This document shows, in pieces, positions 10,273 through 39,096 of a stretch of 64,000 bases of DNA; positions within the stretch are counted from its first letter, which is position 1; each line of letters begins with the position of its first letter. The notes under the pieces are model-generated. The model was given only the letters and a program-made list of their open reading frames with translations. It ran no database searches and had not been told where the DNA came from. Both the position numbers and the translations under genes were made by a program. This DNA comes from Tigriopus japonicus (Eukaryota; Arthropoda; Copepoda; Harpacticoida; Harpacticidae): assembly GCA_010645155.1 (NCBI GenBank), contig CM021319.1, positions 6,655,106-6,719,105 of the forward strand, written 5' to 3'.

Positions 10273-10424
10273 TATATTGGGTCGTAACTATTGGGTATTG
10301 CACTAACAATGGTCATACTCATTTCTTGGACCTTCTTTTTCAATTCACATGTCGCAGTAATCCGTTGCCGAGATGAATGTGAGGTTCCAGTTACAAGTTA
10401 CCCAAGAGCCATAAATTTGTGTGG
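10273..10424. repeat. Direct duplicate, left side of the first gap
   Basis: Matches 10847-10998 base for base except for about two substitutions (GTCGTAAC against GTCATAAC; AATGTGAGG against AATGGGAGG). It abuts the gap. Confidence 0.9.
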
Positions 10425-10844
10425 NNNNNNNNNNNNNNNNNNNNNNNNNNNNNNNNNNNNNNNNNNNNNNNNNNNNNNNNNNNNNNNNNNNNNNNNNNNN
10501 NNNNNNNNNNNNNNNNNNNNNNNNNNNNNNNNNNNNNNNNNNNNNNNNNNNNNNNNNNNNNNNNNNNNNNNNNNNNNNNNNNNNNNNNNNNNNNNNNNNN
10601 NNNNNNNNNNNNNNNNNNNNNNNNNNNNNNNNNNNNNNNNNNNNNNNNNNNNNNNNNNNNNNNNNNNNNNNNNNNNNNNNNNNNNNNNNNNNNNNNNNNN
10701 NNNNNNNNNNNNNNNNNNNNNNNNNNNNNNNNNNNNNNNNNNNNNNNNNNNNNNNNNNNNNNNNNNNNNNNNNNNNNNNNNNNNNNNNNNNNNNNNNNNN
10801 NNNNNNNNNNNNNNNNNNNNNNNNNNNNNNNNNNNNNNNNNNNN
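10425..10844. other. Assembly gap (420 N)
   Basis: Unresolved bases. The long open frames crossing it are artefacts of N translation. Both sides carry the same ~152-bp sequence. Confidence 0.99.
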
Positions 10845-10846
10845 AA

Positions 10847-10998
10847 TATATTGGGTCATAACTATTGGGTATTGCACTAACAATGGTCATACTCATTTCT
10901 TGGACCTTCTTTTTCAATTCACATGTCGCAGTAATCCGTTGCCGAGATGAATGGGAGGTTCCAGTTACAAGTTACCCAAGAGCCATAAATTTGTGTGG
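10847..10998. repeat. Direct duplicate, right side of the first gap
   Basis: Second copy of the sequence at 10273-10424, offset by 574 bp, starting two bases after the gap. Most simply an unmerged contig overlap, possibly from two haplotypes. Confidence 0.9.
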
Positions 10999-13009: not shown

Positions 13010-13915
13010 TCAGGCAATGTTCTGTCCAGGGCCACCGAAATGGTTACTGTTACTGTTATTGTTGTTATTATTATTGTTTCTTCGCAACGTTCGGATTTTG
13101 GCCTCGATGTATTCGCTGCTCTTCACTGACACTTGAATGGGTTTGCAGTCCTTAATTTGGACTTGGGTCTGGAGTTGTTCCGGCACATTGCTTGCGGTCT
13201 CATCCTTGTTGGCTTTGCTCCGACTCCGGCTATTGAATCGGTGGGCCCCAGTGCGCACAAAAGTGCTCGAGATCCCTTGACTGCTCAGACCAGATATCCG
13301 TCCGGCAAATTGTTCGTTGGAGGTCGAGGGTCTTAGAGTGGTGCTTCCACCTCCCTGACTGCCTGCCCGACTCACAGAGGCCAAAAGAGGCTGTTGCAGA
13401 GGTGAGGAGATAAGAGGCCGCTGCTCGCTGAAGCGACTCGAGGATTGACGAGAATAGCTGAGCCTGTCTTCTAGGCTCTGATCACTCAAGTCGGATTGCG
13501 GTTGCTGAGGCATGGCCTCTTCGTAAAGTTGAGAAGCCTGCTGTTGGTGATGCATGAGAAGGGGATTACTCGGATCGATCTCCCAATACACGTGTCCATG
13601 AGGAGACACTGCTCGATAGACCAATTCATCTTGGGAAGACACACCACCACCCCGGGACAGGTTCTGTGTCATGAACTGAGGACTCATGGCACCGCTGTCC
13701 AAACTGGAACTGCCGGTGGACCCTGAAGGCATCATCATATTGATACTGTCCACCAATTGAGTACTGTACGGATTTAGGGTGATGTGAGGCCGAGGTTTGG
13801 TCAAATGGTGAGGTTGAGGAAGGAGAGTGGTGGCTGTCCCATTTGGGGTCACCCGCACAGTGCCCACCACTCCATGTTGCAATGTTTTGGTCCCACCGAC
13901 GTATTGTGAGGACAT
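13010..13915 (-). CDS. Terminal exon: long cytoplasmic tail of latrophilin-like receptor
   Basis: The acceptor CTCATTCCAG is followed in phase 0 by ATG TCC TCA CAA. The exon encodes 301 residues and ends at a TGA. The tail is disordered and Ser/Gln-rich, with a compact segment that looks constrained (ELVYRAVSPHGHVYWEIDP, about 115 residues in), acidic Ser motifs (SDLSDQSLEDRLSYSRQSSS), a leucine patch, and a C-terminal poly-Asn tract encoded by AAY repeats (complement of about 13038-13075). The C-terminus GQNIA is not a classic PDZ ligand. An open frame continues upstream to 13960, but the splice acceptor defines the exon start. I do not recognise the tail as any named domain. Confidence 0.8.
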   Translation of the reverse strand: MSSQYVGGTKTLQHGVVGTVRVTPNGTATTLLPQPHHLTKPRPHITLNPYSTQLVDSINMMMPSGSTGSSSLDSGAMSPQFMTQNLSRGGGVSSQDELVYRAVSPHGHVYWEIDPSNPLLMHHQQQASQLYEEAMPQQPQSDLSDQSLEDRLSYSRQSSSRFSEQRPLISSPLQQPLLASVSRAGSQGGGSTTLRPSTSNEQFAGRISGLSSQGISSTFVRTGAHRFNSRSRSKANKDETASNVPEQLQTQVQIKDCKPIQVSVKSSEYIEAKIRTLRRNNNNNNNNSNSNHFGGPGQNIA

Positions 13916-16900
13916 CTGGAATGAGAAAGAGTCCGTTTTATTATTTCTTGTAGGTTGCAAAAGAGGTGCAAATGCAAGGAAATGGTCAAATCCAGTTTAC
14001 GACTTTTTGTTGGCGGCTTCTGATGCATTTTACCACTTTCGAAGATAGTGCCCATTTTGCACCTAAGGAGTGCTCAAGGCTGTGGTCGTTTATTAGGCAG
14101 GCTTTTCACTTTTTAGCATCGGAAAAGACTTAAAAGTTTTCATTAAGCTTCAATCAATTCAATTAGGAGATTCTTTTCTTTGCAAACGTTGCTCATCCTG
14201 ACTTTTCAACCAACTGGTTCGAAAAAAAACACAACTTTTGGGAGATTTGGAGCTCGTCCTTTTTCCGCCAAGAAAAGTACCTGGGAAAACTTGAGTGGTT
14301 TTTGTTGCTTTACTCAACGACCAAGTTCATTCAAGCAAGGTGTGGTCAGAAAACTTTTTTTATTTCGCCAAGTTCCTTACTCGTCGTCTCTCGCCTAAAA
14401 CCACAATCGGGTCTCTTATCCTTCTTTTTCATGGTAATACTTCTTTACCCGACATATCTCTCATCTTTTCCGCGTAGCAAGTGCCTTTGATTGAAGGCAA
14501 GAGACCTTCGTTGGTGCATAACCGAACAAAGGTTGCCTTTATACACCAAATATAAGGACCCCAATACTTCACAGAGTCTCAAATTCGATACTGTACAAAA
14601 GGCAATTTCATTAACTCCGAAAGTTGCTCGCCTGAAAAGCTTTATACAGGGTCTAGCCGTTGGGCTTGTTCAAGTACTTGTTATTCTAGGGTTGCAGTGG
14701 GTCAAACAAAAACTTTTTCATGTCCATCATGCCCCTTCGGAGTTCACTGACTAAAACTGAAACAAGTCCACTTAAGCCCTTTAATCCTCCCTTTCAAGAC
14801 CTTTCTAGCCCATTCATTGTTTCCTCAGTGTCAAGTGGAATAAGGAAGGCCAGCTCTTACCCTTGAAGAATTGTTAAGTAGGAGCGATCTGGAACTCTTG
14901 TTCGAGGCCTCCAAGTTCGATCCACTGTGATGACCTCCAGGACCTGGATGATAGAAACTTTGGCCCTTGTGATTGGCAGACGCGTCCTTGCTGCAAAACG
15001 ACGCCGATGACATGGGCAACAAACCACAGCAGCAACAACAAAAACCATTGGAAGACGAGCCACACATTTTGTGTCGAAACTGGAAATAGATTAAGAGTAT
15101 TCGTTAGTCTTTTGGTGACACTGTCGGATTGTACCAATCGAAAAGGAGCATAAAGTAAGTTTGTCGAAGCTTGGATTGTGGAAAATTGGCTTTTTCTGGA
15201 TAGTTGCAAAAAGGTCCTTGTGGAGATCGAAAGTTTTTCGGAGAACACAAATTTTTCACAAATCACTTTCCAATGTTGGTAGTGAGTTTGGCAGCCTTTA
15301 AAATTCCAGTCACGGAACTTCAAACTTCGAGTATCAGCAACTTGTCGAGGCCTGCGATGAACTCGACTTTTGCAAAGCAAAAAAAGGGGACAAAGAAGGC
15401 CCCCTTGAATGTAAAATTGACCTTCAAAGGCCGTCTCAAGTAACCCTGAATATGTCAATAGCTACCCTTCTTTGCCCTTCAGAGATTCGTGCGTCTTCCA
15501 ATTAGCTTCTCTGTGAGAGATCTATGAAGAAATACTTCCTTGGCCTGTGCAAGTGTGCCAAATAAGTCCAATGCTCAATCGTCCGTGAGACTTGGCATGT
15601 TTCATTGTAGAATTAAGGGAGAAATGAGGTATTAGTGCAGGCTTTACCCTAATGACTCCATTGGAACGAGTTTTCTCTCCCTCGCTTCTAATTAAAGTCC
15701 ACACGAAAATTCTAAAAGCCAACATTTTTGTAGCCAAGTTCATCACAAAACATGCATACAATATATTGGGAGAAGTTTTTTTCCTTCTAATTCCGTGCTT
15801 GAGGCTAGTAGGCAGTAAAAAGTGATTTGAATAGTGCATGTGTGGTTGGCATGACTCTTCATTCTACGCTTGATTTGAAGCGAATTGGATTACAACAAGG
15901 CCACTATTAACCTACAGCCAGAGTCGAAAGTGACGTTCTTTGTCTTGATTACCAAGAAGCACACCAACAGCGAATCCAGCCAGTAAGTTTGCGTTCAAGT
16001 GTACCGTGATTTTCTTGAGGCATGTCAGATGTAATCAAAAGGCACCATCTCATTCTTCACTCTTAAGCCCTTCTATGGGATTCCTATACAACACCTCACA
16101 ATGGAGACAGCGAACAAAGTTAACTCAATCTGCATTCAAGCTCTTAATTTCAAAACCCGTGAACTCAAAAGAAAAAAAAGGGGGGGGAGCAAAATTTTCG
16201 CTAGCATCTTGGAAGAACCATTTGCACTTTTCTCCGAACTTCAAGTGAATAATTCACGCTCTCCCTGGAAGTTCTAGGCTCAGTGTGTACCTACATTGTT
16301 GCTGGGAAGAGAACAGTTGTTCAGACCCATTCGACGGTAATGGAATGATGAAGCTCTTCAAAAAGCACTTTAAGCATCTCTTCCTGGACTTCTGGTTATG
16401 AATTTGCACTACCACCACTCTCAAAATGCGTGCCATTCACAACCTTCCGAACTTCATGCTCGAGAGAAATTTGCAGAGGTTTGGCACGATATCCCAACAA
16501 ATGTGTTCGTTTTTGTCAGAGGACTAAAAGGGGCTCCAAAAGGGTTTCGGGAGTGTGTGTAGAAGGGAGGTTATGAACATTGAGCAGACTATGGAGCATG
16601 AAGAAGTGGATTTGGTGAGGTTCCCTCTGTCTCTTTCCACTTGGCCAGCAAAGCCGAGATCGCCACGGACAGACATTTTTCGGATGTTCGGTTCAAAAGT
16701 AGTAGAAGAAGGGGAGTCGCATGGATGTGAATATTGTGCCCGACCAGAGTGAAATGCAATTTAATTTCAGCTTCACTAAATCATAAAAGATGAGATTTGC
16801 CAAGGCTTCTGTTCGTGCCTCCTCTGGAGAGATGGAGGTCGTCGGGGGAAAAAAATAAGTTCAAAGTGTGAAACGGACAGAAAAAAGCTCATGAATACCA

Positions 16901-19900
16901 TTTTTGGTTGGAGGATTGCCTTTGTCCTCTAGAGACCGGATTCATCCCAGATCGGATTTCAGATGCAGTTCTTTAAATCCTGGGGATTTTGATTTAGATA
17001 ACTTGAGATTACCACGACAGGAAATAGAGGGGAAAAGTGGACAAAAAACTCGGCGACGACCCAACTTTACTTCTCGATTCCCACCCCTCCAATCATCAGT
17101 CTGCTTCTGTCACTCCAAGATATGGAATGAGGGAACGAGGGAGACACTGAGGTTTTTAAAAGATTTGAGCAACACGTCCACGTAACTCGTCGGTAGCGGA
17201 GGAAAAGTTCATCGGGATCTCTCATTCTTGTAAAGTTGGCACCAAGATGTCACCTTCCGCCTTTCCGCGTGACAATTCTTGTCATCTGGTGCCAAGAGTT
17301 TGCAAGCAAACTTGTGGCGGATTTCGGATCAATTTCATTTGATCTACCAGGTTCCTACATCCTCGCTTTGCCATGCTTCTTTGATCATCACAAATTATAC
17401 AGCTGCCTCGAGTATTAATCACATTGAGTCGCAGGTGACGGATACAAATCAAATCTAGATTGTCAGAGCCTAAAGGATGCAAATATTGATAATACGAGGC
17501 ACAAAAAGTTCACACGTTGCTTTTCGATATCTTTTTTGTGAGGCCTTGTTCCAGATTTGCCACTCAAGTTTTGGGTTCAACAAGTTTTTATTACATGTAA
17601 AATTTAATTAGAGTACTTGGTGGAACGTCTTTGCTTTCAATATCAAAGGATTAAATACTTGAGTGGCATGCTCCATAAGCCCTCTCCATCTTCTTGTCTC
17701 CTAGTTTTAGTTGGCGAGAGGCTTTGGCAACTTTGAACATTTTTATCAAGAAACTTTTCAACTTGGTAAGTTATCATTCAAAATTTCTCTCCAAGGACAA
17801 AAATGAAGCCCACCCTCAGACTTGAGGTTTTGTTGATTCTGCGGAAAATTACAAAAGTTTTGACATTTCTTGGGACTCTGTCGTTGTCAGAGCAAGACTG
17901 AAAAGGGGGAAGTTCTGTTGACATTTCCCTATTCAATAGGGGGTCTTTCGAACATCAGGCAGTCAGTTCGCTCATCCGTCTTTGTCCGTCTTTTCTTGTT
18001 CTTGGAAACGGCCATTTCCACCAACCCTTAGATCGTAAAATATGACTGAACCAACTTTTCCACCCCTTAAATAGCAATTAAGCCTCATTCACTATTGTTC
18101 ACGGGTTCTTTTCAGCCAGATCCCATCATTTTGTGCTCAAATGTCAAGAACGAAAATCCTTTCTAGGCTAACGTGAAAGAAAAAATGCTATTACATCATT
18201 CTGTTATTCCCTTGGAGTAAAAACCCATGAAATGAAAACTTTCGCGAGCCATTGTATTTTTTCCACTTTCTTAAATTCAATTCCAGTTTTTGAGGTTACA
18301 AACAAGGTCCCAGGATTGAAATTTAATCCCTAGTGATGGGATTAATGCAGTTAAGCTCAAGATTAACTCGAGGAGCATCACTCACAAACTCGATCAAGGA
18401 CGGACTTTCGATATCGGAAGATGTTTCAAGATCCTATCTAGCCAAAGATTTATGACGATAGCCCTGAAATATGGTCCAAAGAGGGGCCCTCGTTTTTTTT
18501 ATTGAAAATTCGATGCCCTCCCTTCCTCAAGACGGGAAGAAACCTCAAAGCAAGCGACGTTCCGTAAAATTGGAGGAAAACGCACCTCAGTGGTGGAAAC
18601 AGCGACTTTATTACCATAATATCGGTAATTATTTCCCAATTCATATTTTCCGCGCTTGCCTCAAGTGCACGATATGAAAAAAACACGGTTGGCAGAGAGG
18701 GAATATACAGAGAGAGAAATGTTCGAGTTCGAATCTACCCCATCAATCTTTCACTCCCATCCTGGAGCAATGCATCACCCTCATCTCAAGTACACTACGA
18801 ACTGTACGCTTAGTTCCTCGTGTACTATTCACGTAGCTCTATCTGGCATAACGAAGAGACACCACTGAGAAAAGAATGAACAGACAAGGGGAAGAAGATC
18901 CTGAGACCAATCGTCCCGCTCGTTGCGGTAACCGATCAGTTTCGAACAAAAAGCCCTCTAAAACCATAACTAATTGCATTTACATCTGAGAAGATTGAGT
19001 CCCCGGTAATGGGGAATGAGCGGCAATGCTTTTGAATTATGTTTTTAGAGCGCCTCCAAACTTTCATATAAGGGCTGTTTCAGGACATGTACAATTTGGC
19101 CAATAGATTGCTCCGCAGATTGACTGCATGTACAGGCAGTAATTGAGGGACTTCTTGATGAAATGGAGTCACAAAAGAGACTAATTTCCTGCTCAAGTGA
19201 CCCTTGCCTGACCTCGAAAGAAAAGGAGGCCAGATTGATTATCCGTGATGCCAAGGAAACTACTTTTCCTCTTTCTCTCTGTTCTTGCTCCGTGTCTGGA
19301 GGTCCCTTTGGACTTTGCTTCCGACCAATTACACCCATGTTCATTACCAGTGTGCAACGACTGAGCCCGAGTTGTGTGTCAAGGCCTCGTTTCGACGAGC
19401 TCAATTCCAGGGAAAGCTTACAAGCACTACAGGTTTTCCAGTTTATGAATAAATCATGTCTCGAGCAAACCGGCCAATTTTATGCATTGAGAAACGGGGA
19501 ACCCGAGACACAATGCCAAGTAAATGACTCAATTAGTTCGGGGTTGTAACGGGAACACCACCGCGTATTCATGGCTAATGAGATCGTAGCCCTAGTGGGC
19601 CCTTAATGATACGGTATATTCCGTTCTTGGCAAGGCCGCTGAATGGGAGAAAATAAAAGAGTAATATATCGTGTCTTACCACCAAGAGAATCAGGACCAA
19701 GCAGAACACAAAAATGGCGGCTACCACCGACCCAATGATATCGATTCGATTCAAAATGGATTCCAATAGCACTTCCGATTCGTCGCCCGGAATTAGAGGT
19801 CGCATGCTCACTGCGAAGTTGGTTAGGTGGTCACACTCACAGACAGTTTGGGTCCTATTGCTTGACTTGACGCGGCAGCCCTGACTTGACCAGGAGTGCT

Positions 19901-22900
19901 CGTCAACGTCCCAATAAACACACACAGCGTCAGTCATGTTTTCACTCAAGTGGCGGAATGTGATTTTCACTGGCTCGGCCAATTGTGTTCCTTGACCAGG
20001 CTGAGAGAGCGAGGCCGAGATGATCCTCGAATTAAGGACTCGGTCACGGTGGGCCTTGCGGTCTTCCACTTCCATTTTGGCATGACCCAAGATCTCGTGA
20101 AGATTGTTGAAGGAGAAGAACACCACTTCACTTAATCCACCCTGAGCATGATTTTGAGCATCTCCAAACGAGATCTGGACCGAGTCGTCCACATACAGGA
20201 GATTGGAATTTCGAGAGGGAAAAGTGAGGCTCTTCCGACGGTTCCTTCCTTCTGTGGATTGGCCTCTGTTTGTGACATCTACCACGGAAACGGCCATGGC
20301 TGGAAATACACAAAAGAGGAATGGAATGAAAATATTTGATCTAACTGAGGAGACTGGAAACTTCTTTTTTTACTCCTCAAAGACGCCTACCGAGTTCTGT
20401 GTCTTAGTGCCTCGCTTTGCTATCCTAGTTCTCAGTGGCAGACCTGCAGGTCTTCTCGCTTTTGTACTTGACTCAAGTCATTTAGCCTAAAGGGGTGATA
20501 GATGATGACAGGGTCTCCTATGACAGCCTCTAACAATCCAACTCATTTCTCAACAATTTTGGGAAAGACACACCGAGTGAGTCGAATGATGCCACGCAAA
20601 GCGAGACAGAAAGAACGAAAGAGATGGAGGTAGATAAAAGCAGGGGAGGGAGAGAATTCTCTTTTTCCCTTTTACAATATTGCTCCTGTCATCATTCATT
20701 TCAAGATCTGTGCTCAGGTGAGGAGAGCACAAAGAGGGAGAAAGACGGAGGCACTTTTTGTCTCTCGGGCATTTTCTTCATTTGTCATCATTATCATTCC
20801 AAGGCCGGGTTCAAGTTTTGCGTCGACCAAAAAACACTGGCCATCAAGGGTGGATACTTACTTAAAATATCCGAAGACTCCACAACAGAATTGGGATCAT
20901 TCATCACATTGGCCAAGAGAAAGGCATTCTCATTCAGAGCAAGGATGAGCTGACTAGCCACCTTCATCTGACCATCAGGGTTGAGATCAAACCAAGCCTC
21001 GCGGTTGATTGGATCCAGCACATTATTTGCCGATCGAAAGACATTTTCCAAAACTTGACGAATATGTGACTCCTTGTTAGGAAGGCCTCCGTTTTTGAGT
21101 GGTTGTTGCAAACGGTATTGGATTCGATTGGCCACTGTTCTCATGGTGGCCACGGCTGTCTCCAGGTCACCCCCATACAAAGACTTGGTGCGAGTCAAGT
21201 AGGCCAGGGCAGAGACTAGAATATTTTCTGGATCTTCCTTTCGAACTTGAGCCTCAAGGTTGGTCATGGCAACTGACTTACAGTTGCTCATGTCCGGCTG
21301 AGGTGGTGCCCATGTGGAAGTCATCTCTGGGGTCTCATTTCTGCCGTGGATCTCAACTAGGAGACAACTCCAGCGGGCATGACCAGTGGCCCCAATCGGA
21401 CATGGTTGAACAACTTCTTTCCCGGCTTGGGTCCAGTCCCATTGAAGTTTTCTGGCAGTGGTGGGGGCACACCAGAATGAAGGATTAGAAGAAACAGATG
21501 TCGACGAGGGACCCACAAAAAGGCCGTTATCACCTTCTTGCTGTTTGGCCATATTTATGGAGGAAGACGAAGAGGGCTGGAGAGCTACAAAGTTATCTTC
21601 CTTGGAACCCGATGAAGGATTAAAGCCATCAACACTGGCCATCTCGTTGGATTGTGGTGACTGGGAGTTGTCTTCCATTGGATGGAGGTCTGCCACTAAA
21701 ACGAAATGGAACAAAGAAAACCTATAAAAACCTGATACGCCATGAGGGAACAAAAGTTGATCTGATAGGACAAGGAAAAATGGCTCATGATAACCCATAT
21801 GGTCCTCGTAAAATGTTATATATCAAGTTGCTGTCTTTTCTGAGGCCAGCATACTTGAGCTAATCCCATTCTCCCTTCCAGTTCTTATTTGGCAAACTCT
21901 TCCCCTTGAATCAAATGTCCCAACCCAAGGTTTCTTTGCCCAACTATGAGCGTGGTATGTCCGACGAGAAAGGGTTGTTGGTCTTACCTTTATCAGTCTG
22001 TAACTTAATGGGATCCTGGAGACGGTCTGTGTCAGGATGTGGAGGCCTCGGCTCGCCAACTGGTCCCAAACTAGATGTTGAGGGTATCGGTGTAGTGATA
22101 GGCACTCGGGGAGTTTCATCTTCCTTGTCGGTCACAAGTATTGGTTTTCTTGGGGCTTGGGTGGTGACTGGTATCACCACTCGATCGGTGTCAGTTTGCG
22201 GTTGAGATGGACGTCCTCCACGAACACTTGATCCTCCACCGCCCACCAGAGTCGGCTTCCACGTCTTCCTTTGATCGGGTGTGTTTCCACCCTTTTGAAG
22301 CCAAGGAGGCCGATGTTGATTGGTATTGACGACGACTTGAGCTTTTGACGTGGAACACGCGTAATGGATCTCCAAATATTTGTGAGTGCCTGGACACGCA
22401 TCAGGTAATATGGAACTAGAGACTGGGATGGTACACGCTCGTCTCCCATCACACCTGAAATTATGGAAATCCAGATTTACGCTACTTCAACACGGGATTT
22501 AACTTTTCTATATATTGATGCTTCATCTCTTCCTGAGGAGGGCCTCTATTCGCCCTTTTGAAATGGGTTCAGTAGATGTACTCACTAAACTAAACACGCA
22601 TTCTTGGAAACCAAAGTTATCTTTTCAATTACTCAAATAACGACCAATGTTAGTTCCATGTCGACCCCAAAATGCTGTTTTATTGCGCAAATTTGGGATT
22701 GGAGCAATTTGCTTACCTCATGGTAGCACCTTTTCATCCAAGTCTTTGGCTTGTCATCGAATGTCACAGATGCGTATTCGATAGGATCTAATCTTACCCA
22801 TTGGCTTCCGAGTTCTCTCTCTCTCTCGTTTCCTCTCTTCACTCCCCCGAAATTCACCCACACACGAATCTTTTGACATTTTTCCAGACTTCTCATCTTC

Positions 22901-25900: not shown

Positions 25901-27451
25901 ACATCGGCTCAGTGGTCTAGGGGTATGATTCGCGCTTCGGGTGCGCGAGGTCCCGGGTTCAAATCCCGGCTGAGCCCAGTTTACTTTTTTCAACTTGTGT
26001 ATATTTATTTGTTATCTTCGCGAGACTTTGGATGCCAATCAATCACTTGAACAATCAATTATAAGCAAGATTCGATAGCATATTGCGTCAAAATCCATTT
26101 TTCTCCTTTGGCTACTCCCATTGCACACAATTCATCACGTGAATATTGGCGTAAATGTCATTGAGAACGACAATAACGTTCGTTCAATCCTTGTCACGAT
26201 TGTCACGTTCACTCTCAAATTAACCTTAAAACAATTTGCATAATTTGAGGTCGATCAGAAAAGCCACAACAGCGTCGGTAGACCTCATTTTGTACACAAC
26301 CGAGTACAGGATAATCCATTGAGCAAACATCAGGGGTACTTTCAAAACTTAGCTGCCTGCCCTCCAGTGTTTGCTTTATTTAATGAATTGCCACCTATTT
26401 CGTATTCTTCCATGGACAAGCAACCAACCCAAAAGAACCAACCATTTAGCTTTTTCGGTCTCTGCTGTTGCCACCTCACTTTGGTGCCCTTTAAGGAAGT
26501 TCGAGTTAATAGACCAATCTCTCGTTGAATTCAGCACTCTATCGCCATCAAGTCCATAAAACGAGATTTGATGACATTGAGAACAGTTTTGAACCCAATT
26601 TTCACATGGGTGAGATTTGAGCTCAATCTTGGGAAGGATGGCAAGATCGTAAAACCTTCTCATTCTTGATGTGCTAGTCATATTTTTCCCCCTTGGCGGA
26701 TCTTTCTTCTCAGAAAATGCCATTAGCATTTTAATTTCAAACGTACTAATTCTGACCATTCTGGGCATACATGGACTGTTGAACACGCGGAGACAGTTTA
26801 ACTTTTACGACATCTTATTCCCAAAAACTCCGAGTTGAAGGTCTTTTTTTTAAGCACGGACCTTTTGCTGTCAAGGCTTCAATTCCTCTAAAAAAACAAG
26901 AAGCGTCTTTTTGATTAGTGGCTTGTGGAGTCTGAGTCGTAGTTTGTGGGCCCTCTTGGGCACAATTATGAGCAAATGAGACGTAAAATGACTCTCGCCA
27001 CTCACTAGGAACCAAAAAGTCAACGAAAGTAATTCCGCTCCTTTTTTTCATTTTGGAATGTGTGTCCATGTTCGGTTTTAGAACAAGCTGAAACTGAGCT
27101 TGATTAGAATGATCATGACTTGCGGGACCCTTAAATTGGACTTTAGCTCTCCCTTTCACAGACAGATTGGATTAGAATGCCCCCCATTATTAGCGTCTTT
27201 GACTAGAAGAAAGGAATCTTTGGGGACTGACCGTTCTTTCAAGGTGATCGTAGTGGAAGGAGCCATGCAATTGACACTCCAATCGGTTTGGCCGTGTTGG
27301 TTGCACAGGGCAATGGTGAAACGCCCAAAATTGCCACGCACCACTTGGATCATCTCACGTGGGTTCGAGCCTCGGTCGTTGCATGTGATGGTCATGTTTT
27401 CACCCTCACAGCTGTAGGCGGTCTTGAAGCGGGTTCCATCGTGAGCCAGGC
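13010..27451 (-). CDS. Latrophilin-like adhesion receptor with a single transmembrane helix (gene span, 5' incomplete)
   Basis: Six exons, complement of 27232-27451, 21988-22454, 20862-21695, 19680-20299, 14861-15079 and 13010-13915, join in frame to 1,088 residues plus stop. Every junction is GT-AG and the phases match (2/1, 1/2, 1/2, 0/0, 0/0). Domain order: SUEL lectin, linker, HormR with four Cys, GAIN, GPS with His-Leu-Thr, one membrane helix, long Ser/Gln-rich tail. Up to the helix this is the latrophilin (ADGRL/Cirl) order, a cell-surface adhesion family that undergoes GAIN self-cleavage. Latrophilins normally continue with helices 2-7. Here the first helix splices in phase 0 to a basic, Cys-rich tail exon, and I saw no helix 2-7 exons in the 4.6-kb intron, so the protein reads as a type I single-pass receptor. 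The signal peptide and 5' UTR are upstream and were not found. A canonical seven-helix gene may exist elsewhere, or the locus could be misassembled. Confidence 0.85.
14861..15079 (-). CDS. Exon: basic juxtamembrane segment and Cys cluster of cytoplasmic tail
   Basis: This 219-bp exon has phase 0 at both ends (acceptor CTATTTCCAG, donor TCAAGG|GTAAGA) and encodes 73 residues. It opens with FRHKMCGSSSNGFCCCCCG. Joined to the previous exon, the Phe extends the hydrophobic helix and Arg-His-Lys forms a stop-transfer signal, as expected for a type I membrane protein. The run of five Cys, with further Cys nearby, is a likely S-acylation site (inference). The rest is Ser/Asn/His/Gly-rich. A 194-codon open frame that overlaps this exon on the same strand in another register has no support. 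Confidence 0.72.
15080..19679 (-). other. Intron of the receptor gene where helix 2-7 exons would be expected
   Basis: This 4.6-kb intron separates the helix-1 exon from the first tail exon. I looked on the minus strand for latrophilin seven-helix landmarks (a Trp-Met pair in helix 3, the LTW-x-x-G segment of helix 6, the F-N-x-x-Q-G helix 7 motif) and for long hydrophobic open frames, and saw none. Sequence is continuous, with no N. Confidence 0.6.
19680..20299 (-). CDS. Exon: GAIN subdomain B, GPS cleavage motif and the transmembrane helix
   Basis: The exon encodes about 207 residues. It completes the GAIN domain and contains a full GPS: VCVYWDVDEHSWSSQGC, then VCECDHLTNFAVSM. All four GPS Cys, the two Trp and the His-Leu-Thr cleavage triad are present, so autoproteolysis between Leu and Thr should be possible, giving an N-terminal fragment held non-covalently. 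The Thr-Asn-Phe-Ala-Val-Ser-Met start of the tethered-agonist strand is intact. After an acidic spacer (PGDESEVLLES) comes one hydrophobic helix, IIGSVVAAIFVFCLVLILLV. The exon ends in phase 0 at TTGGTG|GTAAGA. If the intron were retained, 34 further residues would follow before a stop. Confidence 0.9.
20862..21695 (-). CDS. Exon: linker end, HormR domain and first part of GAIN domain
   Basis: The exon encodes about 278 residues. The first ~70 are Ser-rich linker. The HormR domain begins at FWCAPTTARKLQWDW and carries four Cys (FWC, QPCP, WSC, SNC). The helical GAIN subdomain A follows, with recognisable latrophilin positions in TKSLYGGDLETAV, the NNVLDP segment and WFDLNPDGQMKVASQL. The acceptor is TTTTAG, adding TG to complete a Val codon, and the donor is TTTTAA|GTAAGT in phase 1. 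The similarity in HormR and GAIN-A is strong enough to place the protein in the latrophilin subfamily rather than another adhesion-receptor group. Confidence 0.9.
21988..22454 (-). CDS. Exon: second half of SUEL lectin plus Thr/Pro-rich linker
   Basis: The acceptor (TTTCAG) leaves one base that completes an Arg codon with the previous exon, giving LKERCDGRRACTIP. The lectin ends with the signature DACPGTHKYLEIHYAC, which is diagnostic for the latrophilin/rhamnose-binding lectin family. The remaining ~110 residues form a low-complexity linker rich in Pro, Thr, Gly and Ser, like the mucin-type stalk between lectin and HormR in latrophilins. The donor is AAAG|GTAAGA and leaves phase 1. Confidence 0.9.
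25906..25977 (+). tRNA. tRNA-Pro (anticodon CGG)
   Basis: A 72-nt cloverleaf. The acceptor stem GGCTCAG pairs with CTGAGCC, the D-arm is TGGTCTAGGGGTATGA, and the anticodon stem CGCGC/GCGCG carries loop TTCGGGT with anticodon CGG at 25938-25940. The T-arm CCGGGTTCAAATCCCGG is perfect and contains A-box and B-box promoter sequence. CCA is not encoded, as expected for a eukaryotic tRNA gene, and there is no intron. It lies in the second visible intron of the latrophilin-like gene on the opposite strand. Confidence 0.97.
25985..25990 (+). terminator. Pol III terminator of tRNA-Pro
   Basis: Six consecutive T begin 8 nt after the tRNA 3' end, a standard RNA polymerase III stop. Confidence 0.8.
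27232..27451 (-). CDS. Exon: first half of SUEL/rhamnose-binding-type lectin domain
   Basis: The exon runs from a TTTTTCCAG acceptor to a CG|GTCAGT donor and enters with two bases of a split codon. It encodes AYSCEGENMTITC, then NFGRFTIALCN and TDWSVNCMAPS, the N-terminal half of the SUEL lectin fold, with Cys spacing and a GRF-I-x-x-C-N core as in latrophilins. In that family the domain binds extracellular partners such as teneurins. The remainder of the domain is encoded at 21988-22454. The lectin begins about seven residues into the exon, so a signal-peptide exon must lie further upstream (higher coordinate). Confidence 0.88.
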
Positions 27452-36400: not shown

Positions 36401-39096
36401 AATGTAATGGCTCCAAAGAGGGTTGTCGTAATCAAAAGAGCAACGCACCACAAAATGGGGGCCACCCTGAAGGTGCCAATTACCGCCAGTTTGTTTCCCC
36501 CCTTGTTCTAACAACCATCGACCCTCGAACGAACACAATGTCTTAAAAAGGTTGACATTTTTATTCGTCCGTGTGTGTTCTGTGTATAATTACGTCGACA
36601 ATGAAACAAGCACGTAACACGAAAATGGTTTCCAGCAATTAAACCAACAAACCATCTCGGAAGCTCTTTTTAAACCTGTGATAAATATATGAGCACAGGG
36701 TGACCCAGATGCTTTGCTTCATGTCTATTCCCTCACTCTTGTCAAAGGAAATGTTCATTTTCGTCAAGGGAGTGTCCACGCGCCCCAACGGCTTCAATCC
36801 AATTTGGCGACTTAGTGCCCGAAAAATCACCCATAAAAAGGGCCGAGCAGGGAATCTGAGAGGCTTTCAGTCGTGCATGCACTTGGGTAGTCTCTCTTAA
36901 TTGCCATCAATTAAAAAACAATTCTCGGACTTTTTGGCCCCTGAACCCACGTTCTTGACACAAGTTCATCACGGCAAGACCACGGAGTATCTCCGCCCAA
37001 ATGGGAATGACTCCGAGTTCAAGGAGCTCATTCTCGTGCTTGATTCACCCTGACAGCCGACATCAAAGACGTGACGTCACTTTTCAAATTGCTGACAATG
37101 CCTATTATGACATTAATCTCAATTCATCTTGGTAAACATGGGCCCTTTTTATAGCATGTGATACTTCATCGCGTCTTAAACCGGTGCCAACGCTCTTCGG
37201 ATAGAGCCAAAATTAAGAATTTTTGAAATACGAGTGCGGTTCGCTTTTAGCATTTGCCAGCTCAAGTTACGTTGAAAGATTGAAAGTCCGAGGTTGAAAA
37301 GATGGTGAACTCGAAGCGAAATCTTTCATGACTGGGCTTGCTTGTCTGGCCAGGAAGCTCTGTATCTCTCCGGTTGCTGCCCACTCTTGGGAAAAGCCCC
37401 TGAAGGTAAGTAAATTACAGGGAGTCTACATCTACATCTCGACAATTAGCTGAATGGTTGGAGAACTCCTCGAAGGCTTTGGCAACCCTTTTGCTCAAGT
37501 TCGAGCATTACTATTACTGCTTAGCTACTCGGCCCTAGGATGGCTGAGATCGAGGAAAAAATTCCGTGAAAACAAAAACAAGTTCAACAGGAGGAGCTTT
37601 TAAATCCCAATGATCCCGGAGACGACAAGCCAAAGAGAACAGGTTAAGCTTTGGAAATGAAAAATAAAAACATTCCACTGTGGGAGGTTTTTGAAGTACA
37701 CAGCCTGAAGATGTAAAGTTATTGCTTATAAAGGTTCAAAGCCACAAGTTGTAATCGAATCATAAATATTAGGAGCAAACCTGCTCGAACAAAAGGCTCT
37801 TTACATGTTCAAACAAACTTCACATCAAGTTTCTCGAATACACTTGGATACGATATTCGAGTTGAAAGTGGCATTTACTTATTTCACTCGTTTCCAGAGG
37901 CAATTTCCTACTTTATGCAGGTTAAGCGCTTTACAACTCATGCAAATGTGGACCCCATGCAATAAAACGGTCGTGATCTGCGATCTAGGTACTACTTACA
38001 AATATCGTGACTTTCTTTTATCTATCGTGATGTTGGTGGAACCATTCATGATCAAATCAATTTCTCTCGGCTTTTTTATCTTCCAGTCATTTATAGCTAA
38101 CTTGTGTTGCTATCTTGTCAAACTCAGAAACCTTAAATTGATTAAATCATTCCTAGTCTGGATTGCACAACTGATTAGCTATCGAATGAGTGAAAATCGC
38201 CTGAACAGTGTTTGGATTGCCCAAGCAGCTGTCCATTATTCAGGATTGCACCCCAGAAAAAAGCCCTTTAGACTTGAGGGTCGGATGACATTAATTTAGG
38301 TAGGAACTGAGAAGTTAGAGCCGGCTGATTGCCCGCTCGACAACGTCGTTGCCATTCAGTCATTAGAGTAAAGCTGCTGATGCCCATGCAAAACCCTTGA
38401 CCATAAAGGCGGTGAGTGAGGGGCTCTTAGTAAGAAAGACGAAGGATGTCATAAATCGGAATCTTTCGAGAGGATTTTCTTCTTACCTTCTGGGAATGGT
38501 GGGTATAGACCACCCTGACTGTCCGAGGTTTGTCCGGGGTCACCCGAGATGTGCTGGACATCGAGTAAAAATACGGACACAAGTAAATGGGTCACAACCC
38601 CGCCAAGAAGCGGTCTTTTCTTCGTTGCCATGATGACAAGCTAAAAAAGGCCAAGCACAAGGCCAGGCGTGGAGTAGGTAGAAGAAAGATGGCCAAACAG
38701 ATTGAGAGGTTAGGGAGGAGATGGGATCCTCATGACTACTCAATCACTTTCCACGAGATTCACTAAGTGGATCTTTTGTTCAACCTCAAGATCATTCCCA
38801 CGAAAGTTGCGAAAGACAATGCAAATGGGCAGGAACCACCAGCACTTGGGCACAACTCGTCCTACAGCCACCACAACAGCCTCTTTGGGGGAAGAACTGA
38901 CTATCTTTATCACCACCTCTTATCTTCCGTCTCGGACTCATTTAACGCCCTTTCAAGTGGGTAAACACTTTTCTCTTGAAATCTGAGGTAAATAGGGGGC
39001 GAGGACTTGTAATACCCTGAAACTCTTACAGCACTTCACTTGCAAAACAATCCTTGTCGACAGTGATCTTCCCTCCTCGGTCCCACTGACACTGAC
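27452..39096. other. No confident gene; should hold or lead to the 5' end of the receptor gene
   Basis: I found no ATG-bearing signal-peptide exon on the minus strand that leaves phase 1, as the lectin exon requires. The longest open frame is 37805-38299 on the plus strand (164 codons from an ATG), with hydrophobic runs and poor codon structure, probably chance. Confidence 0.35.
35026..35051. repeat. Compound (TC)n-(AC)n microsatellite
   Basis: A TC run passes directly into an AC run. Confidence 0.85.

Follow-up and report, generated by a model that had tools for sequence, protein, structure and literature searches.

Latrophilins are adhesion receptors of nerve cells and have seven transmembrane helices. 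The window analysed here, a stretch of 64,000 nucleotides from Tigriopus japonicus, carries on its minus strand a latrophilin-like gene in which one helix is followed by a long tail. Are helices 2-7 encoded elsewhere at this locus, or is a single helix the design of the gene? The initial annotation had proposed the latter, a one-helix latrophilin dedicated by gene structure.

Exons and domains of the window gene

Joining the minus-strand coding exons (Table 1) gives 1087 residues with no internal stop, and the GT-AG junctions are phase-consistent throughout the exon series. For all genes discussed here, the splice sites were inferred from the DNA letters and not from transcripts. The product contains SUEL (the galactose/rhamnose-binding lectin), a weak HRM, GAIN, a GPS with the site HL/T, one helix and a tail of 374 residues.

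Table 1. Features of the gene in the window
Feature	Position	Strand	Basis or remark
Candidate signal-peptide exon (MATKKRPLLGGVVTHLLVSVFLLDVQHISG...)	38520..38631	-	phase-1 donor after 38520 (or 38487)
SUEL (galactose/rhamnose-binding lectin) first-half exon	27232..27451	-	PDB matches, splice phase
SUEL second-half exon (CDGRRACTIP...CPGTHKYLEIHYAC) and Pro/Thr-rich linker	21988..22454	-	PF02140
HRM-like and GAIN subdomain A exon	20862..21695	-	PF16489; PF02793 below cut-off
GAIN subdomain B, GPS and single transmembrane helix exon	19680..20299	-	PF01825, PDB, hydropathy
GPS	19809-19925	-	CDHL/TNFAVSM, site intact
Single transmembrane helix	about 19680-19739	-	hydropathy
Intron after the helix, 4600 bp	15080..19679	-	no 7TM exon detected
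Juxtamembrane exon, 219 nt, phase 0/0	14861..15079	-	C9 counterpart; phase-0 junctions in C13 and both C22 genes
Last exon, cytoplasmic tail, TGA end	13010..13915	-	homologous C9 tail exon, motifs
Tail motif HVYWEI	13577-13594	-	
Tail motif RQSSSR	13433-13450	-	
Tail motif EQRPLI	13409-13426	-	

The first half of SUEL was spotted by eye among the open reading frames and then confirmed by PDB matches (CSL3, E 2.5e-5; C. elegans latrophilin-like protein 1, E 0.0027) and by splice phase, the exon being bounded by TTTCCAG/GC ... CG/GTCAGT and in phase with the next one. With 33.8 bits for PF02140 in the second half (cut-off 31.4), the lectin of a latrophilin (ADGRL) is present. HRM reaches 21.0 bits for PF02793, under the cut-off of 26.2, GAIN (PF16489, E 1.6e-16) and GPS (PF01825, E 2.1e-15) are above their cut-offs, and CDHLTNFAV can be read directly. 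Since SUEL, GAIN and GPS pass the cut-offs and the top PDB match of the GPS/helix exon is ADGRL3 (E 4.7e-18), the ectodomain is, by its sequence, of the latrophilin type. The candidate signal-peptide exon was the only one to pass the thresholds when the minus strand from 27.45 to 60 kb was scanned for hydrophobic leaders that start at an ATG and have a donor in phase; its assignment to this gene is unproven.

The helix exon ends with TTGGTG followed by GTAAGACA, in phase 0. The juxtamembrane exon is preceded by TTTCCAG, opens with FRHKMCGSSSNGFCCCCCG... and closes, again in phase 0, with AGG followed by GTAAGAGC; its peptide starts with FRHK, a Cys cluster comes next and KGQSFY stands further on. 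After an intron of 945 bp, the last exon is preceded by CATTCCAG. The phase-0 joining of the first two of these exons, as initially annotated, is thus borne out and leads on to the last exon and the stop codon.

Two other features of the window were observed. A tRNA-Pro (CGG) is predicted at 25906-25977 on the plus strand, antisense within the intron separating both SUEL exons. At about 10288-10971, near-identical sequence lies on either side of an N run, as if a stretch had been duplicated at a gap or at masked sequence.

SUEL, GAIN and GPS are shared with the latrophilins/ADGRL (LPHN1-3, LAT-1), as is an HRM-like stretch that in the window gene stays below the cut-off, and the best PDB matches of GAIN/GPS are ADGRL3 and latrophilin-1. 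In contrast to these receptors, no helices 2-7 were detected in the family described below, and a Pfam scan of the window tail gave no match. EVA-1/EVA1C and other single-pass SUEL proteins also combine SUEL with one helix, but they have a FAM176-type tail and are not known to have GAIN/GPS, and the GAIN of the window gene argues against membership in this group. In the available passages of PMC6422961, invertebrate latrophilins mostly have GAIN, RBL and HRM and no OLF, with extra domains in some.

A family of eight loci

The genome was searched with PF02140 (12 matches from 20 candidates), with PF01825 (14 GPS matches from 19 candidates) and with a latrophilin-type SUEL query (19 matches at E<=1, the best 20 candidates being scored). 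Eight loci yielded a SUEL first half (C40:394k, C40:447k, C40:456k, C9, C13, C22:554k, C22:831k and C5), and all eight a second half as well, while the remaining matches of the SUEL query (C4:509k, C6:7.53M and C2:2.67M) are weak and partial. At every one of these loci a GPS and a single helix lie on the strand of the SUEL, about 2-15 kb downstream; a full gene model was built for the window gene only. GAIN was found at seven loci, to which, with the eighth, all nine genome-wide PF16489 matches belong, and HRM is above the cut-off at six. A whole-frame scan gave values just under the cut-off for HRM in C40:454k (24.9 bits) and for SUEL in C40:450k (29.5 bits). Residues 80-514 of the 856-residue frame of C40:450k align with the ectodomain of ADGRL3 (E 2.6e-44), and the best stretches in its PDB list (E<=1e-5) stop by residue 561, inside the helix.

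Across the eight genes, GAIN-B/GPS identity is 19-45%. A small GAIN-B/GPS tree, in which one of six inner branches is starred, puts all three C40 genes in one cluster (84/85) and both C22 genes in another (83/96). For the window gene and its counterpart on C9, the GPS, middle and tail exons give a pS of 0.80-0.82 and a pN of 0.44-0.55, alignment by protein similarity lowering pN; no dN/dS is given because dS is saturated. The two are taken, with no neutral control, to be old copies with constraint acting at the protein level. Judged from these comparisons, the window gene is one of eight old paralogues sharing the one-helix design. At C40:447k-456k, two adjoining one-helix genes lie on opposite strands and both have lost the GPS cleavage site. 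At C22:553684-566482, an additional SUEL half was seen at 558450, apart from the two halves paired at 553684 and 554288, and this one-helix locus may carry two lectin domains.

The passage from helix to tail differs in its introns. C40:391k, C40:450k and C40:454k each encode GPS, helix and tail (260-414 residues) in a single open frame. Four further paralogues have an inferred post-helix intron of 62-764 bp, namely 62 bp in C13 (between ...LLALLAMR and FRRSFIKSCCSS), 113 bp in C22:566k, 123 bp in C22:832k and 764 bp in C9 (between ...FVAVK and FRSQLSHVV). The long one of 4600 bp, between ...LILLV and FRHKMCGSS, is found in the window gene alone. All five of these introns are in phase 0, and the following exon, where traced, closes in phase 0 (219 nt in the window, 222 in C9, 198 in C22:566k and 144 in C22:832k). 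In the closest paralogue, C9, the phase-0 junction also opens with Phe-Arg and is followed by the 222-nt middle exon and a homologous tail; the two middle exons (FRSQ...KSQSFY in C9) share 27% identity over 64 aligned residues. Because the junction and the exon series recur in diverged paralogues, the exon series of the window gene is more than chance. The contiguous or short-intron paralogues therefore make one helix the design of the family, independent of the long intron in the window. These are very probably one-helix genes, and the lack of the other six appears to be a set feature of the family, neither a one-off nor an artefact. Hence the structure proposed initially is supported by three contiguous frames and four short introns, and with eight such genes found the window gene is no isolated oddity.

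The GPS cleavage site reads HLT in the window gene, C9, C13 and C40:391k and HLS in C22:566k, so that, by their sequence, five of the eight members could self-cleave. The site is lost in C40:450k (RIA), C40:454k (KLG) and C22:832k (HLG), and cleavage is therefore not needed family-wide. According to the accessible part of PMC12488864, ADGRE2 built with one helix is delivered to the cell surface, with an extent of cleavage that was not quantifiable there.

The tails of the family comprise 224-414 residues. With the window tail as query (E<=1), two of the seven paralogue tails come up, C9 at E 1.3e-12 and C40:391k, a weak match, at E 0.011; the C9 tail (E<=5) retrieves C9 itself and the window only. 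The C9 tail exon is 42% identical to the window tail over 94-279; RAVSPHGHVYWEIDP and SRQSSSR are identical in both, and VQI.D...I.VS.KS..YI.AKI is held in common. For the other tails no alignment was obtained beyond short motifs. H-[IV]-Y-x-E-[IV], a motif picked post hoc, occurs in seven of the eight tails, with 0 or 1 match per 2000 shuffles of each tail; it is absent from the 5.2 kb scanned at C13, whose tail end is unsure. It may be an SH2-type docking motif. RPL[ILV] with a nearby acidic residue, a pattern relaxed to admit C9 (HPLI), occurs in six of the eight (with 0 to 14 matches among 2000 shuffles of each), and the EQRPLI-type stretch may be an acidic dileucine-like AP-2 motif. RQSSSR is found in three tails and SSQSSGY in two.

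Helices 2-7 and the seven-helix relatives

PF00002 (7tm_2) was run against the whole genome in six frames; of the 53 candidates scored, 36 were matches at E<=0.001. Both matches on contig C5 are more than 4 Mb from the window gene, and no 7TM match lies within the intron after its helix. Ten minus-strand open reading frames from the two introns, one of which extends into the middle exon, yielded no 7TM family at E<=5, and hydropathy in the three coding-strand frames over the 6.7 kb past the helix gave no segment with at least two helix-like stretches. By profile, intron frames and hydropathy, the seven-helix domain of a latrophilin was not detected in the window gene, in agreement with the initial reading, which saw no exons for helices 2-7 in the 4.6-kb or the 0.9-kb intron.

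The same hydropathy scan found no segment with at least two helix-like stretches at C9, C22:566k and C22:832k, and one segment with two such stretches at C13, about 3.5 kb beyond the exon following the helix; since all three C40 genes have helix and tail in one frame, they were left out. As a control, six other GPS loci were scanned. Multi-helix segments appeared at five of them (C4:10958k, C8:722k, C8:588k, C4:9264k and C6:2458k) and none at C1:5326k. A 7tm_2 match lies near five of the six as well, and none is listed for C6:2458k, which is probably, from its hydropathy, a diverged 7TM receptor. With helix-like stretches and no 7tm_2 entry, this gene shows that diverged 7TM genes can escape a search by profile alone, and for this reason the evidence from the paralogues matters. 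On contigs C40, C13 and C9 there is no 7tm_2 match at E<=0.001, and the single one on C22 lies 58 kb past the GPS of C22:832k.

Does the genome also encode a seven-helix sister with the same ectodomain, as had been suggested? C4:10958k is a single frame of 703 residues with GPS and 7TM, its top PDB match being ADGRL3 (7.4e-53), and SUEL, HRM and GAIN are absent from it at E<=0.1. C8:722k also has ADGRL3 as its top match (1.7e-24), and two of its ectodomain frames are without a Pfam match. For one exon of C4:9264k the top matches are ADGRL2 (E 6.2e-19) and ADGRL3 (7.4e-19), followed by ADGRL4 (6e-17) and ADGRE1 (7e-17); its helices thus appear ADGRL-like, with a small margin over other subfamilies. 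The ectodomain frame of C4:9264k (C4:9260001-9270000), 359 residues long and with no PDB match, contains a degenerate SUEL-like stretch (18.1 bits, cut-off 31.4) together with C-type-lectin-like and EGF-like stretches, all below the cut-off, and a neighbouring frame has a weak HRM. The statement that no seven-helix gene here has any SUEL-like stretch was overturned by this degenerate SUEL and had to be narrowed to a clear latrophilin-type SUEL. Among the best candidates listed, no gene links such a SUEL to seven helices, so that no second canonical latrophilin gene came to light, nor did the supposed sister, as the ectodomains of C4:9264k, C4:10958k and C8:722k differ in their readable stretches.

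One-helix receptors and competing explanations

The available passages of PMC13197933 describe seven-helix and one-helix forms of Drosophila Cirl that appear to heterodimerise and to signal through G-alpha-o; the title of Bormann et al. 2025 (Cell Rep), cited there, matches the initial annotation in attributing one-helix Cirl isoforms to intron retention. As in these isoforms, a latrophilin ectodomain is carried by one helix after the GPS in the window gene. In Cirl, however, this form results from intron retention in a gene with seven-helix products as well, whereas here eight long-tailed genes fix one helix, and at the DNA level no 7TM exons were detected near any of the eight loci. According to the same passages, a membrane-bound N-terminal fragment of LAT-1 suffices for the fertility functions, and ectodomain-only variants reported in C. 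elegans are thought to function without the 7TM domain (PMC13197933). Those variants arise from a 7TM gene, while the genes described here are dedicated single-pass genes with tails. Among open-licence papers, judged from leading titles and abstract openings, none was seen to describe latrophilin genes dedicated to a one-helix form. One-helix Cirl forms are known as splice products, and a family of dedicated one-helix genes would be the new part.

The best overall explanation of these sequences, to which we assign a probability of about 0.62, is a family of one-helix latrophilins acting as adhesion and recognition receptors with docking tails. The protein would be made with one helix and then cut at the GPS, leaving a lectin-bearing outer fragment on a one-helix stub, and would work without a G-protein module of its own. 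Its main role would be cell-surface adhesion and recognition, with the ectodomain binding partners on neighbouring cells or in cis. The tail may dock cytoplasmic adaptors through the tyrosine motif H-[IV]-Y-x-E-[IV] and may drive internalisation through the acidic dileucine-like motif (EQRPLI in the window). By analogy with Drosophila Cirl, a seven-helix latrophilin relative may serve as cis partner. A bolder version, which we regard as tentative and put below even odds, is that the latrophilin ectodomain has been fully uncoupled from the GPCR module, giving eight single-pass receptors that would signal by SH2-type tyrosine docking and not by G proteins; the ADGRL-type 7TM would persist with other ectodomains.

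Several other explanations have to be weighed. One helix might be one splice form, with a seven-helix form also produced from diverged or distant exons. Drosophila Cirl has both forms (PMC13197933, available passages), the window intron spans 4.6 kb, and C6:2458k indicates that diverged exons can be missed. Yet three paralogues are intronless from GPS to tail, in four others the inferred intron measures 62-764 bp, no multi-helix segment follows the window helix, and 7tm_2 matches at E<=0.001 are lacking on C40, C13 and C9, with the sole match on C22 58 kb past the C22:832k GPS; we consider this quite improbable. Somewhat less improbable, though still doubtful, is a canonical gene with SUEL and seven helices that is missing from the assembly, in which case the one-helix genes would be extra copies and not a replacement. 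In an assembly of 158 contigs, and with the best 20 SUEL candidates scored, absence is no proof; on the other hand, contigs reach 15 Mb, 36 7tm_2 and 14 GPS matches were recovered, and both lectin halves were recovered at all eight loci.

On a similar level of doubt we place decoys or ligand traps, in which a membrane-held or shed ectodomain would compete for latrophilin ligands and the tail would serve trafficking only. The GPS site, intact in five of the eight (four HLT, one HLS), would allow release, and ectodomain-only latrophilin variants are reported in C. elegans (PMC13197933, same passages), but tails of 224-414 residues with conserved blocks, such as RAVSPHGHVYWEIDP in the window and C9, exceed the needs of a plain anchor. 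That the window locus is a decaying or mis-assembled gene is hardly credible, since nothing but the unusual architecture speaks for it, and the frames are open, the splice signals good and the design repeated in seven diverged paralogues.

So far, the action of the latrophilin ectodomain apart from its GPCR half has been approached by means of splice forms and truncations. Eight genes that place this ectodomain on one helix are a natural experiment, in which function, ligand binding and GPS cleavage are testable without the 7TM domain. A family of one-helix latrophilins would show that an adhesion GPCR is able to evolve into a family of single-pass receptors.
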